Shown: positions 25,193 to 29,772 of the stretch, in pieces
Numbering within the stretch: the first letter of the stretch is position 1
Layout: every line of letters begins with the position of its first letter
Origin: Deltaproteobacteria bacterium
GTDB taxonomy: Bacteria > Desulfobacterota > Deferrimicrobia > Deferrimicrobiales > Deferrimicrobiaceae
DNA: 64,000 nt
Direction: 5' to 3'
Assembly (NCBI GenBank): GCA_021815305.1
Contig: JAKAHC010000002.1
Location: 124,001 to 188,000, forward strand
The notes under the pieces: model-generated
What the model saw: the letters and a program-made list of their open reading frames with translations, nothing else
The model's database searches: none
Told to the model about the DNA's origin: nothing
Made by a program: the position numbers and the translations under genes

Positions 25193-25221
25193 TTGACCGC
25201 CGCGGCTATGGGCGTTACTAT
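25193..25221 (+). promoter_or_regulatory. Sigma-70 promoter of the fur-feoB operon
   Basis: TTGACC (25193-25198) and TACTAT (25216-25221) are spaced by 17 bases, matching five of six and four of six consensus positions. It lies between the rplQ terminator and fur. The -10 end overlaps the Fur-box-like palindrome, so repression by Fur would follow directly from geometry. The predicted transcription start is near 25228. Confidence 0.65.
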
Positions 25222-25236
25222 GAAAGTGAATTTCAT
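25220..25236 (+). promoter_or_regulatory. Candidate Fur operator
   Basis: ATGAAA (25220-25225), GTGAA and TTTCAT (25231-25236) form a perfect six-base inverted repeat. The 15-mer 25221-25235 agrees with the Fur core TGATAATNATTATCA at ten of the fourteen defined positions. It covers the end of the -10 hexamer and the predicted transcription start of the operon encoding Fur itself and the ferrous iron transporter, which is where a Fur repressor site is expected. Confidence 0.6.
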
Positions 25237-25260: not shown

Positions 25261-25713
25261 TTGGTGGAACGTCTCTTACAGCGGATCGATCGCGAGATCC
25301 TGGCGGCCGGCGGGAAGCGCAGCCGGTGCCGCGCGGTGGTCATGGAGCATTTTTTCCGGGCGGGGCACCACCTCACCGTGGAGGAGCTGACTCGGAACGT
25401 GCGCACTGCGTTCCCCGGGATCGGCGGCGTCACGGTATACCGTACGCTGAAGCTATTGGCGAGGATGGGGTACGCCAAGGAGCTCGACTTCGGAGAAGGC
25501 ACCCGGCGTTACGAAAGCAACCTGTCTTCCCACCACGATCACCTCGTCTGCAGGGAGTGCGGAGCCGTCATCGAGTTTCAGGACCCGCGCATCGAGAGAC
25601 TGCAGGAACTCGTAACGCGCCGGCACGGGTTCCGCCCCGCGGCGCATCGCCTCGAAATCTACGGGTGCTGCAGGGATTGCGCCGCCGGGGGCGGCAGGGC
25701 GGGGAAGCGGTGA
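25261..25713 (+). CDS. fur: Fur-family ferric uptake regulator
   Basis: This is a Fur-family metal-responsive repressor of about 150 residues. The winged helix-turn-helix contains [18 protein letters not shown] and the recognition helix [19 protein letters not shown]. The dimerisation domain has the histidine cluster HHDHLVC and two CxxC pairs, Cys97/Cys100 and Cys137/Cys140, typical structural zinc ligands. The start is uncertain. The frame is open up through the terminator, but the only initiator codons downstream of the promoter are TTG 25261 and GTG 25264, with AGGAG 15 bases or more upstream. The stop overlaps feoB (GTGA), so it probably senses iron and controls its own uptake operon. 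Zur or PerR specificity cannot be excluded from sequence alone. Confidence 0.88.
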
Positions 25714-27689
25714 ATCCCGCGCCGGCAGTCAAAGCACCCGGGTCCCCGGCCGGTACCGTCATCCTCGTGGGAAACCCCAATGTCGGGAAAAGCGTGGTGT
25801 TCGGCGCGCTCACCGGACGGTATGTGAACGTTTCGAATTACCCCGGGACGACCGTGGAGATCGCCCGCGGGGAGGCGCGGGACCGCGGACATGTCTACGA
25901 GGTGATCGACACTCCCGGAGTCTATTCTCTTCTCCCGATGTCCGAGGACGAGCGCGTCACCCGGGACATCCTCATGAGGGAAGAGGGGGCCCGGGTCCTC
26001 CACGTGTGCGATGCGAAGAACATGCGACGGTCCCTCATGATCACGCTTCAACTCGCGGAGATGGAGGTCCACTTCGCGATCGCCGTCAACATGGCCGACG
26101 AAGCCCGCGAACAGGGTGTGATGCCGAGGCTGGATTCCCTCGAGGGGATACTGGGTGTCCCCGCCGTTCCGACGGTGGCGGTCCGGAAGAAGGGGACCGA
26201 CCGGCTTCTCTCCCTGTTGGACCGCCTCCCGGTTTCCACCGTCCGCCTCCATTACGGGGAGAACATCGAGGCGGCCGCTGCGGGGATGGAGCGCCTGCTC
26301 CCCGCAAGGACTCCCGTCGGGAAAAGGGCGCTGGCCCTCATGCTCCTGTGCGGAGATGACTCCCTGACTCCGTGGATCGCGGAGAACGTGCCCCCGGCGC
26401 GGATCCGGGAAATGAACGACCTGCGGAACCGTCTGGCCGAGGAGACGCGGGGAGAGATCGCCTACAGGGTGAACCAAACCCGTCTTGCCTGGATCGATCG
26501 CCTCCTGGCGGAGATGGGGGTCGAACCGTCCGCCCCGGCCGGAAGGGACTACGCGCAGGCATTCGGCCGGTACGCCATGGATCCCGTATACGGCATCCCC
26601 ATTCTTCTCTTCGTCCTCTTTCTCGCGTACGAATTCGTAGGGGTGTTCGGCGCCGGATTCCTGGTCGACCTGCTGCAGAGGAAGCTCTTCAACGAGTGGG
26701 TCGTCCCGGCGGTCGCCTGGGGCGCCGACCGGGCGATTCCCTGGCGCATTGCGCGGGACTTCCTGGTGGGCCCTTACGGCATGGTCTCCATGGCGCTGTC
26801 GTACGCGGTTGCGATCGTCCTGCCGATCGTCGGCACGTTTTTCCTCGGGTTCGGAATCCTGGAGGATTCGGGGTATCTCCCGCGGCTCGCCGTGATGGTG
26901 GACCGCATCTTCAAGAAGATCGGATGCAACGGGAAAGCGGTCCTCCCGATGGTCCTGGGTCTGGGATGCGACACGATGGCGACCCTGACCACGAGGATCC
27001 TCGACACGCGGAAGGAGCGCGTGATCGTCACGCTGCTTCTCGCGCTGGGGATCCCGTGCTCCGCGCAGCTGGGGGTCATCCTGGGGATGCTTGCCTCCAT
27101 CGGGGCGGCGGCCACGGTCACCTGGCTTCTCCTCATGGTGGGCATCATCTTCCTGGTGGGGTACCTCGCGGCGAAAGTGATTCCCGGGGAGTCCTCCGAT
27201 TTCATCATGGAGATCCCCCCCATCCGCTGGCCCCAGTTCGGCAATCTCGCCGTCAAGACGATGGCACGCATCGAGTGGTACCTGCGCGAGGCCGTCCCCC
27301 TGTTCCTCCTGGGGACCTTCATCCTGTTTGCCGCGGACCGGTTGGGATGGCTCCTGTGGCTCCAGCGCGCGGGCTCCCCGCTCGTGGTGAAGATGCTGGA
27401 CCTTCCCCCCAAGACCACGGAGGCGTTCCTGATCGGTTTTCTCCGGCGGGATTACGGAGCCGCCGGGCTCTACAGCATGGCGAAGGCCGGCATGCTTACG
27501 CACCTCCAGGTCCTGGTAAGCCTGGTCACCATCACCCTTTTCATCCCTTGCCTCGCCAACCTTCTCGTGATCATCAAGGAGCACGGCGGCAAGGTGGCCG
27601 CGGGGATGGCCCTTTTCATCTTTCCCTTCGCCCTCCTCGTAGGCGCCGCGCTTTCCGCCGCCGCCCGCCGGTTGGGGATCCACTTTTAA
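25710..27689 (+). CDS. feoB: Ferrous iron transporter FeoB
   Basis: FeoB (659 residues) imports Fe(II) across the inner membrane. The N-terminal G domain has G1 GNPNVGKS (21-28), the switch I NYPGTT (43-48), G3 DTPG (67-70) and G4 NMAD (127-130). The membrane half, from about residue 290, has two Gate-type regions, with LGLGCDTMATLTTRIL and GIPCSAQLGVILGMLAS as the conserved core including the cysteine. It is shorter than the E. coli protein and has a compact linker. GTG at 25710 overlaps the fur stop. The conserved small partners downstream are a Cys-rich protein and FeoA, the latter fused to a regulator. Confidence 0.96.
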   Translation: MNPAPAVKAPGSPAGTVILVGNPNVGKSVVFGALTGRYVNVSNYPGTTVEIARGEARDRGHVYEVIDTPGVYSLLPMSEDERVTRDILMREEGARVLHVCDAKNMRRSLMITLQLAEMEVHFAIAVNMADEAREQGVMPRLDSLEGILGVPAVPTVAVRKKGTDRLLSLLDRLPVSTVRLHYGENIEAAAAGMERLLPARTPVGKRALALMLLCGDDSLTPWIAENVPPARIREMNDLRNRLAEETRGEIAYRVNQTRLAWIDRLLAEMGVEPSAPAGRDYAQAFGRYAMDPVYGIPILLFVLFLAYEFVGVFGAGFLVDLLQRKLFNEWVVPAVAWGADRAIPWRIARDFLVGPYGMVSMALSYAVAIVLPIVGTFFLGFGILEDSGYLPRLAVMVDRIFKKIGCNGKAVLPMVLGLGCDTMATLTTRILDTRKERVIVTLLLALGIPCSAQLGVILGMLASIGAAATVTWLLLMVGIIFLVGYLAAKVIPGESSDFIMEIPPIRWPQFGNLAVKTMARIEWYLREAVPLFLLGTFILFAADRLGWLLWLQRAGSPLVVKMLDLPPKTTEAFLIGFLRRDYGAAGLYSMAKAGMLTHLQVLVSLVTITLFIPCLANLLVIIKEHGGKVAAGMALFIFPFALLVGAALSAAARRLGIHF

Positions 27690-27708
27690 GGGGCAAGGAG
27701 GGAATCCC

Positions 27709-27897
27709 TTGAAGATCCGGTGCCCGCTGTGCCAGTACGAAATCGATCCCTCGGACGCCGGTTGCCGAACCGGCTGCCCGATGGGGAAGAGCTGCACTCT
27801 TGTCTGCTGCCCAAGATGCCGGTACTCTTTTCCCATGCCGGAGTCCAAGGTGGTCAACTTTCTGAGATCCCTTCTTCCGAGAGGAAACAGGAAATGA
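27709..27897 (+). CDS. Small cysteine-rich protein of the feo operon
   Basis: This 62-residue protein has eight cysteines: Cys5 and Cys8 in a CPLC pair, Cys19, Cys23, Cys29, Cys33, Cys34 and Cys37, so half a dozen or more possible metal ligands in the first 37 residues. The rest is basic and amphipathic. There is no membrane segment or signal peptide. TTG at 27709 follows the strong site AAGGAGGG, and the stop overlaps the next ATG by four bases, which argues that it is translated. Position between feoB and a DtxR-FeoA regulator suggests iron binding, delivery to FeoB or metal sensing. I do not recognise a named family; a zinc-ribbon fold is the alternative. Confidence 0.75.
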   Translation: MKIRCPLCQYEIDPSDAGCRTGCPMGKSCTLVCCPRCRYSFPMPESKVVNFLRSLLPRGNRK

Positions 27898-28541
27898 CGG
27901 AACACGGGCAGGACGAGATCCTCGAGCTCCTTTGGACTCTTTGGGAAGACGGAAAATCGAAGCGGGAGGAGCTGCTGCGCGCGACGGCGGAAGACCGCCC
28001 CGAGGTTCTCCTGGACGAACTCCTCGCATCGGGCCACGCCGATGCGTCCGGGGATGACATCCGCCTCACAAGAAGCGGAGAGGAACGCGCCCGCGGGATC
28101 ATCCGCCGCCACCGGCTGGCGGAAGTGCTGTTCCACAACCTGTTCGACCTCGACAATGTGCAGCTGGAAAGCAGCGCGTGCCAGTTCGAGCACATCCTGT
28201 CGGAGCCGGTCGTGGAGAGCGTTTGCACGTTCCTCGGGCACCCCCCGGTCTGCCCGCATGGACGGAAGATCCCGAGGGGAGAATGCTGCGACCGGATCCG
28301 CACGGAGATCCAGCCCCTGGTCATGCGCCTGTCCGACGCCACTCTGGGGGCAACGGTGCGGATCGTGTTCATCACACCCAAGTCCCGGACGCGCCTGGAA
28401 AAGCTGTCCGCCCTCGGGATCGTCCCCGGAAGCAGGCTCCGCCTCCTGCAGCGGAACCCGTCCTACGTTCTCCAGATCGGGCAGACCACGATCGCCGTGG
28501 ACAAGGACATCACGGATGAGATATTCGTCAAGCATACGTAG
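27894..28541 (+). CDS. DtxR-family metal regulator with C-terminal FeoA domain
   Basis: This 215-residue protein fuses a DtxR/IdeR/MntR-type repressor to a FeoA domain. The winged helix (about 8-70) is followed by a dimerisation domain with the metal-ligand pattern ACQFEH (Cys96, Glu99, His100) and HPPVCPHGRKIP (His116 to about 127). Residues about 147-213 form the SH3-like FeoA domain, LGIVPGSRLRLLQRNP then the final DITDEIFVKH. FeoA normally supports FeoB, so here the partner is covalently linked to a regulator. It overlaps the Cys-rich gene by four bases and the next gene by 26. It likely senses Fe(II) or Mn(II); which is not decidable here. Confidence 0.88.
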   Translation: MTEHGQDEILELLWTLWEDGKSKREELLRATAEDRPEVLLDELLASGHADASGDDIRLTRSGEERARGIIRRHRLAEVLFHNLFDLDNVQLESSACQFEHILSEPVVESVCTFLGHPPVCPHGRKIPRGECCDRIRTEIQPLVMRLSDATLGATVRIVFITPKSRTRLEKLSALGIVPGSRLRLLQRNPSYVLQIGQTTIAVDKDITDEIFVKHT

Positions 28542-29772
28542 CGGGGTCGCCCTCCTCCTTTGCGCCGTACTGCCGTGGCAATGGTTCTTCCCGGGGATCA
28601 GCGGAGCGGGCGGGGGTCCTCCGGAGGACGTTCTCCTTCTGAAATACGCGGCCCCGGACATCCCCGAGGCGGCGGGCCGGGAAATCCTTGCCCCGATCCA
28701 GGGATGGATGGAGAAAGAGTTGTCCGTGCGATTCGTTTCCACGCCTTCGGAACAACCGGTTTCCGCCGAAGGCCGCACGCCGTACCCTCTTCCGGAAGAC
28801 GATACCCTGCGGCGGATCTCGGAGGGGATATCCGATGCGGCCCGCAGGATGGAGATGGTGGAGTACGCGGAGGCGCTCCTGCTTCTCGACGAGGCGGAGC
28901 GGGACGCCCGCGCCTGCCGCTTCACGGAGGCGACGAGGCCTCTGCTGGCCGAGATCTTCCTGCGGAAGGGGATCCTCGACCTTTGGAAGGGAAACCTTTC
29001 GGGAGCGGAAGACCACTTCTCCCGGTCAAGGGCTCTGCGGCCCGGGTTTACCCCGGATCCCGCCCTGTTTTCCCCGCAGTTCCTGACCGTCTGGGATGCG
29101 GCGCGAAGCCGACCGGCGCCCGAAGCCGAACTTCTGGTGCAATCCCTGCCGCCCGGTGCCGGGATCTCCGTCGACGGAGAGCGCAGGGGCGTGACGCCCG
29201 CCAGGATCCATCCAGGGAAACCCGGTCCTGTGACGCTGCGCCTGTCGCTTGACGGATACAGGGACGCGGAAATCACGGGCCAATGGCTGCCCGGAGACAA
29301 GGAGATCCTTTCCTTCACGTTGCAGGGCGACCGCATCGCACGGCTGGGAACCCTCCTCTCCGGGGCAAGCCGGGAGAAAGGGGAAGGTTCCGGGGGCCTG
29401 CTGCGGGAGATCGTAAACGGCTCTGGCGCCAAGCGCGTCGCGATCGTCGCCATCGAAAAGCGGGCCGGAGGGGAAGGGTACGTCGCGAGAATTTACACGG
29501 CCGGACCGGGAAGCGGTGATCTGGCGATGCTCGGGGAAACGGAAATTCCGCCGGGAGACGCGGGGGCCAGGGCGGCGGGCCGCTTTGCGGCGGGGAAACT
29601 CCTCGCGGCGGGATGGCCGAAAACGGAGGGGCGGGAGGCTGCCGGGAGGCCGTGGTACAATTCATGGTGGTTCTGGGCCGCAGTGATCGCCACCGCGGGG
29701 ATTGCCGCGGTGGCCGCAGGAGGCGGCGGTTCCAGCAGTCCGTCCGGAAGCACCGTGGCGGTGAATTTCTGA
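28516..29772 (+). CDS. PEGA-domain envelope protein, exported and probably membrane-anchored
   Basis: This 418-residue protein begins MRYSSSIRSGVALLLCAVLP, a signal peptide or anchor. Residues about 90-190 look like helical TPR-like repeats with many Ala and Leu. A PEGA domain at about 204-270 contains QSLPPGAGISVDGERRGVTP and LDGYRD. The C-terminus is a tail anchor: WWFWAAVIATAGIAAVAAG followed by a Gly/Ser-rich stretch ending AVNF. The ATG at 28516 overlaps the upstream regulator by 26 bases and is preceded by AAGGACATCACGG. PEGA proteins are common in the envelope of Geobacter-like bacteria and their functions are mostly unknown. A start at GTG downstream would remove the signal peptide, so I prefer 28516. 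Confidence 0.7.
   Translation: MRYSSSIRSGVALLLCAVLPWQWFFPGISGAGGGPPEDVLLLKYAAPDIPEAAGREILAPIQGWMEKELSVRFVSTPSEQPVSAEGRTPYPLPEDDTLRRISEGISDAARRMEMVEYAEALLLLDEAERDARACRFTEATRPLLAEIFLRKGILDLWKGNLSGAEDHFSRSRALRPGFTPDPALFSPQFLTVWDAARSRPAPEAELLVQSLPPGAGISVDGERRGVTPARIHPGKPGPVTLRLSLDGYRDAEITGQWLPGDKEILSFTLQGDRIARLGTLLSGASREKGEGSGGLLREIVNGSGAKRVAIVAIEKRAGGEGYVARIYTAGPGSGDLAMLGETEIPPGDAGARAAGRFAAGKLLAAGWPKTEGREAAGRPWYNSWWFWAAVIATAGIAAVAAGGGGSSSPSGSTVAVNF

Follow-up and report, generated by a model that had tools for sequence, protein, structure and literature searches.

Between the ferrous-iron transporter gene feoB and a regulator gene, the 64-kb window (the whole stretch of DNA analysed, 64,000 nucleotides) encodes a small cysteine-rich protein. 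What is this protein, and does it belong to the Feo system, as the earlier note suggested when it called it a possible unnamed part of that system? We refer to the protein and its family as X. The gene order is fur-feoB-X-ideR-like, behind a Fur box.

The X gene and its operon

The X frame (27709-27897, + strand; coding part 27709-27894, stop codon to 27897) starts with TTG and encodes 62 residues. Its translation bears out the claim of eight cysteines in residues 5-37 (Cys5, 8, 19, 23, 29, 33, 34 and 37). A strong ribosome-binding site, also claimed, is present as AAGGAGGG (27695-27702, +), 6 nt 5' of the TTG. X is soluble: its highest 19-residue Kyte-Doolittle mean is 0.48, against 2.49 in FeoB, and we agree with the earlier note that it has no membrane helix. 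The description of the gene as "fully coupled" to its neighbours holds downstream, where the ATG of the regulator (27894) overlaps the X stop codon by 4 nt (ATGA), but is slightly strong upstream, where 19 nt separate X from the feoB stop codon (ending at 27689). Hence, X is coupled to the regulator gene and lies close behind feoB.

The operon is preceded by a sigma-70-like promoter (TTGACC-17-TACTAT, 25193-25221, +), found with a consensus scan that gave two matches in the region for 0.4 expected. Its -10 element is overlapped by a Fur box, ATGAAAGTGAATTTCAT (25220-25236, +), with two mismatches to the published delta-proteobacterial consensus WTGAAAATNATTTTCAW that served as query (PMC545781). 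This is the single match to the consensus in the window, where 0.12 would be expected by chance. The overlap of box and promoter probably places the entire fur-feoB-X-ideR operon under Fur control. The fur gene (25261-25713, +; PF01475, E 1.3e-32) lies in a frame open from 25120, and the position of the promoter and Fur box makes the TTG at 25261 its likely start. The feoB gene (25710-27689, +; 659 aa) was assigned with TIGR00437 (above cut-off), PF02421, PF07670, PF07664 and a FeoB tree; its product is by far the strongest FeoB_N match in the genome and the only FeoB_C match (1/1). A 1264-aa open frame on the opposite strand (25659-29453, -), running across feoB and its neighbours, is probably an artefact of GC-rich sequence.

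The regulator (27894-28541, +) is an IdeR/DtxR-family protein (PF02742, E 4e-23) with a C-terminal FeoA/SH3 domain (PF04023, E 7.7e-14), which confirms the FeoA-fused regulator announced earlier; it matches IdeR and DtxR structures with E-values down to 5e-13. Proteins of the IdeR/DtxR family usually have a FeoA-like SH3 domain as their third domain. The FeoA domain of the regulator is the only one above cut-off in the genome, whose assembly is 97% complete, so that an overlooked feoA elsewhere is possible. The regulator also carries a Cys/His stretch, VCPHGRKIPRGECC (28245-28295), in the segment that joins its metal-binding domain to the SH3 domain; the cysteines of this stretch are absent from the best IdeR structure match.

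The locus resembles the feoB1-R loci of Geobacter and Desulfuromonas, which combine a Fur box, fur, feoB and a downstream "R"; in these genera, the Fur-box table of PMC545781 shows such boxes ahead of fur and of "feoB1 - R". According to PMC2700814, Geobacter feoB-1 adjoins fur and belongs to a separate FeoB group whose substrate specificity is unassigned. The available parts of both papers make no mention of a small gene after feoB1. We found no description of the X family in the open-licence literature, which is not proof of its absence.

X is present in 23 of the 24 genomes of the same family (Deferrimicrobiaceae), and the sole genome without it is 61% complete. In all 190 pairs of close relatives pN was lower than pS (mean pN 0.15, mean pS 0.66), and by this measure X is under purifying selection. 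Since it is kept in nearly all these genomes with pN < pS in every pair, X is not a chance open reading frame.

Spread, sequence and structure of the X family

The X profile matched 57 of 296 genomes of the phylum, one of which (L106) was later rejected; both L106 and L173 gave weak matches without FeoB and were discarded as members on their sequence. One scan of a genome collection contributed 67 X loci, nearly all metagenome-assembled. The scan used alignment A4, because alignment A3 was too divergent for genome contigs; A4 biases the scan towards LxCCPxCxY members, and the share of members with Cys33 is therefore inflated. The distinct relatives number 106, and their record titles span more than a dozen phyla. 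X loci occur in records titled Thermodesulfobacteriota/Deltaproteobacteria, Verrucomicrobia, Chloroflexi, Bipolaricaulota, Calditrichota, Nitrospinae, KSB1, Omnitrophota, Latescibacterota, Eisenbacteria, Dadabacteria, Rhodothermales and Bacillota, and in one archaeal bin, all names being those of the records, some of which may be misassigned. One record titled Actinomycetota (L139) holds a close relative of the window protein. A search of plasmid records returned no match to X.

A comparison of 26 diverse members shows no variation at seven cysteines (5, 8, 19, 23, 29, 34 and 37), Pro35 and Tyr39, and a 62-row alignment retains the same set minus Cys19. The first pair forms a knuckle, C5-P-L-C8 (27721-27732, +). 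It is followed by the middle cysteines 19, 23 and 29 (CRTGCPMGKSC, 27763-27795, +) and by a second knuckle, C33-C34-P-R-C37-R-Y39 (27805-27825, +), in which Cys33 varies outside the branch of the window protein. The protein ends in a basic amphipathic tail, PESKVVNFLRSLLPRGNRK (27838-27894, +). Across the family this tail has a mean hydrophobic moment of 0.50, compared with 0.32 for shuffled tails (123 members, duplicates kept), and it is positively charged in 103 of 103 separate, i.e., unfused, members (duplicates kept).

In the libraries searched the family is without a name, as far as profile comparison can tell. The window protein had no Pfam-A match above the curated cut-off and no NCBIfam match; Zn_ribbon_4, for example, scored 15.8 bits (cut-off 30.3). 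Across the 26 members, the Pfam matches to the cysteine part were weak and generic, of zinc-finger or rubredoxin-like type. The best of RUBY_RBDX (PF21349) had an E-value of 6.5e-6 in one member, for which no bit score was shown; in two members this profile scored 15.2 and 15.0 bits (cut-off 26.5), and neither it nor rubredoxin matched the window protein. X might then be a generic zinc-ribbon protein, in the operon by chance and with a role unrelated to iron, since it weakly matches many zinc-ribbon Pfam models. Yet, a clear match to a known zinc-ribbon family, which by the earlier note would have refuted its suggestion, was not obtained: wherever a curated cut-off was displayed for a member, the zinc-ribbon matches stayed below it. 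The reading is contradicted by the feoB linkage (105 of 106 relatives) and the repeated FeoA fusions detailed below. We consider it very improbable.

Three known protein families come closest to X. The PF12669 proteins are likewise small, rich in cysteines, encoded directly after feoB and of unknown function (PMC8749426), but they are membrane proteins, whereas X is soluble with another cysteine pattern. PF12669 had no match at E ≤ 1 in the window protein, nor in three further members scanned, while as a control in the same scan it scored 34.6 bits in the protein after the canonical feoB of locus L216; X accompanies another part of the FeoB tree. FeoC (PF09012) is also a small cytosolic Feo accessory with a cysteine motif in most species. 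It is however a winged-helix protein with its cysteines near the C terminus, whereas those of X occupy the N-terminal two thirds. PF09012 gave no match at E ≤ 1 in the window protein and is absent from the 25 families listed for the 26 members, in agreement with the earlier exclusion of a FeoC-like winged helix. Rubredoxin and the rubredoxin-like domain of rubrerythrin (PF21349) share with X two CxxC knuckles and a CPxCxY signature, but X has extra conserved cysteines between the knuckles and a constant Feo context.

AlphaFold modelled the single X protein with moderate confidence (pLDDT 65), and a fold search with this model returned nothing significant. Profile and fold searches of the PDB gave weak zinc-finger, ribbon and rubredoxin resemblances. 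A fusion of X to FeoA, described below, was modelled with a confident FeoA half (pLDDT ~95), a helix and a low-confidence linker. The models place short strands around the cysteine knuckles, in an overall arrangement that is uncertain (pTM 0.46 and 0.52).

Linkage to feoB and FeoA, and the FeoB tree

The earlier note asked whether relatives of X always follow feoB. With duplicates removed, feoB lies directly upstream in 105 of the 106 distinct relatives, contrary to the lack of relatives near feoB that the note had named as a refutation. A FeoA/SH3 domain is encoded 3' of X or fused to it in 104, and the other two loci end 21 and 140 nt from contig ends. The X cysteine domain forms the N-terminal half of a FeoA protein in 20 of the 106, where the FeoA half matches PF04023 (E 6.8e-15 and 2.3e-10). 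These 20 fusions lack the DtxR part and all but one still follow feoB. The sole exception among the 106 is a fusion in an Anaerolineaceae bin (L146), which has no feoB and whose upstream gene encodes an EPTP/cohesin-dockerin protein. We rejected fusions of X to FeoB itself: the long frames seen in several genomes arise from reading feoB out of frame.

These data bear on whether X might instead be a co-regulator of the IdeR-like protein, i.e., a zinc ribbon modulating its DNA binding and linked to feoB only through the operon. The overlap of the X stop codon with the regulator start, and the presence of a regulator downstream of nearly all unfused members, would fit such a role. On the other hand, 20 members are joined to FeoA without any DtxR part, all but one behind feoB, and FeoB and FeoA are what the arrangements have in common. 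We therefore find a co-regulator unlikely. On the gene arrangements compared, the common denominator is FeoB, the cysteine domain and a FeoA/SH3 domain, and the DtxR part is dispensable.

The association of X with feoB is thus established by genomic comparison, and its context is that of a Feo component. X has very probably been overlooked as a component of a bacterial system for ferrous-iron uptake, because the family is widespread, adjoins FeoB almost everywhere and is sometimes fused to FeoA. The feoB linkage, the FeoA fusions and the lack of a naming Pfam or NCBIfam model support the earlier suggestion of an unnamed Feo part.

In a midpoint-rooted tree of a sample of FeoBs, one side holds every X-bearing FeoB and is separate from the 24 sampled canonical FeoBs (support 0.998). 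The latter mostly have feoA upstream, and X was found at none of their loci (0/24). The X-bearing side (support 0.94) includes two loci without X; the inner node uniting the X-bearing groups is weakly supported (0.25), and at least three X-less groups lie on this side. The X-FeoA fusions are scattered over several separate places of the tree. In the same branch, 10 sampled loci have FeoB-DtxR clusters without X, and two more have the regulator upstream; a three-frame reading of the gap between FeoB and regulator in X-less loci revealed no divergent X. Hence, X is not strictly essential there. Loci L200 and L206 encode an X-side FeoB with the DtxR-FeoA regulator upstream rather than downstream, and lack X. 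At locus L207, a FeoB of a different type is followed by another soluble cysteine-rich frame (56 aa, 8 Cys, no Pfam match), which overlaps the FeoB stop codon by 4 nt and is possibly a second unnamed FeoB partner.

A candidate role for X

Two observations on known Feo proteins are relevant to the function of X. In Bacteroides fragilis, FeoA binds the G domain of FeoB in a nucleotide-dependent manner and stabilises the GTP form (PMC8980893). In some species FeoC is needed for FeoB, or protects it (PMC8749426). Together with the common denominator of the X loci, they lead us to propose that X may be a metal-stabilised adaptor for SH3 docking. Our main reading is that X is a metal-binding accessory subunit that docks a FeoA-type SH3 domain onto X-type FeoBs, in a role like that of FeoC; we give it a probability of roughly 0.55. 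We infer the metal binding, the contacts with FeoB and the SH3 domain, the effect on transport and the mechanism.

X would then be an accessory subunit of a distinct, fur-linked FeoB group of the FeoB-1-like type. Its N-terminal ~40 residues would form a metal-stabilised ribbon, in which C5-C8 and C34-C37 would be a pair of knuckles of the rubredoxin or zinc-ribbon kind that together bind one metal ion, and C19, C23 and C29 (with C33 in the branch of the window protein) would make up a second cluster. Docking would occur through the basic amphipathic helix at the C terminus. X would hold the FeoA-type SH3 domain against cytosolic FeoB and so tune GTP-driven Fe(II) uptake, like FeoC. The SH3 domain would be supplied here by the third domain of the IdeR-like regulator, and in other phyla by the FeoA fused to the cysteine domain.

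The cysteines could serve another purpose. X might be a cytosolic iron receiver or redox sensor, its cysteines taking up Fe(II) or an Fe-S cluster as iron exits FeoB; it would either hand iron or report to the IdeR-like regulator, or shut FeoB upon oxidation. Seven conserved cysteines exceed the needs of one zinc site, the knuckles are rubredoxin-like (by the weak RUBY_RBDX matches, best E 6.5e-6, and the rubredoxins among the weak PDB matches), the gene lies between the importer and the iron sensor, and FeoC of Escherichia coli carries a [4Fe-4S] cluster (PMC8749426). Yet, structural zinc fits the same knuckles equally well, and the fusions join the cysteine domain to FeoA without a sensor domain. 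We regard this role as a tentative possibility.

The docking subunit has a bolder variant, in which X physically bridges importer and regulator by binding FeoB as well as the SH3 domain that the IdeR-like regulator carries. We think this doubtful. If true, the regulator would double as a FeoA subunit and iron import would be read out directly at the transporter; the fusions of X to FeoA seen in other phyla would then represent a version that lacks the DNA-binding part.

Feo is a widespread route for ferrous iron uptake, and what its small cytosolic partners do is a matter of debate. That a soluble cysteine-rich partner occurs in many phyla, accompanies one part of the FeoB tree and has been fused to FeoA repeatedly suggests joint action of X and FeoA-type SH3 domains. 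The fur-feoB-X-ideR operon offers a defined setting for asking whether a regulator that senses iron is also a subunit of the transporter.
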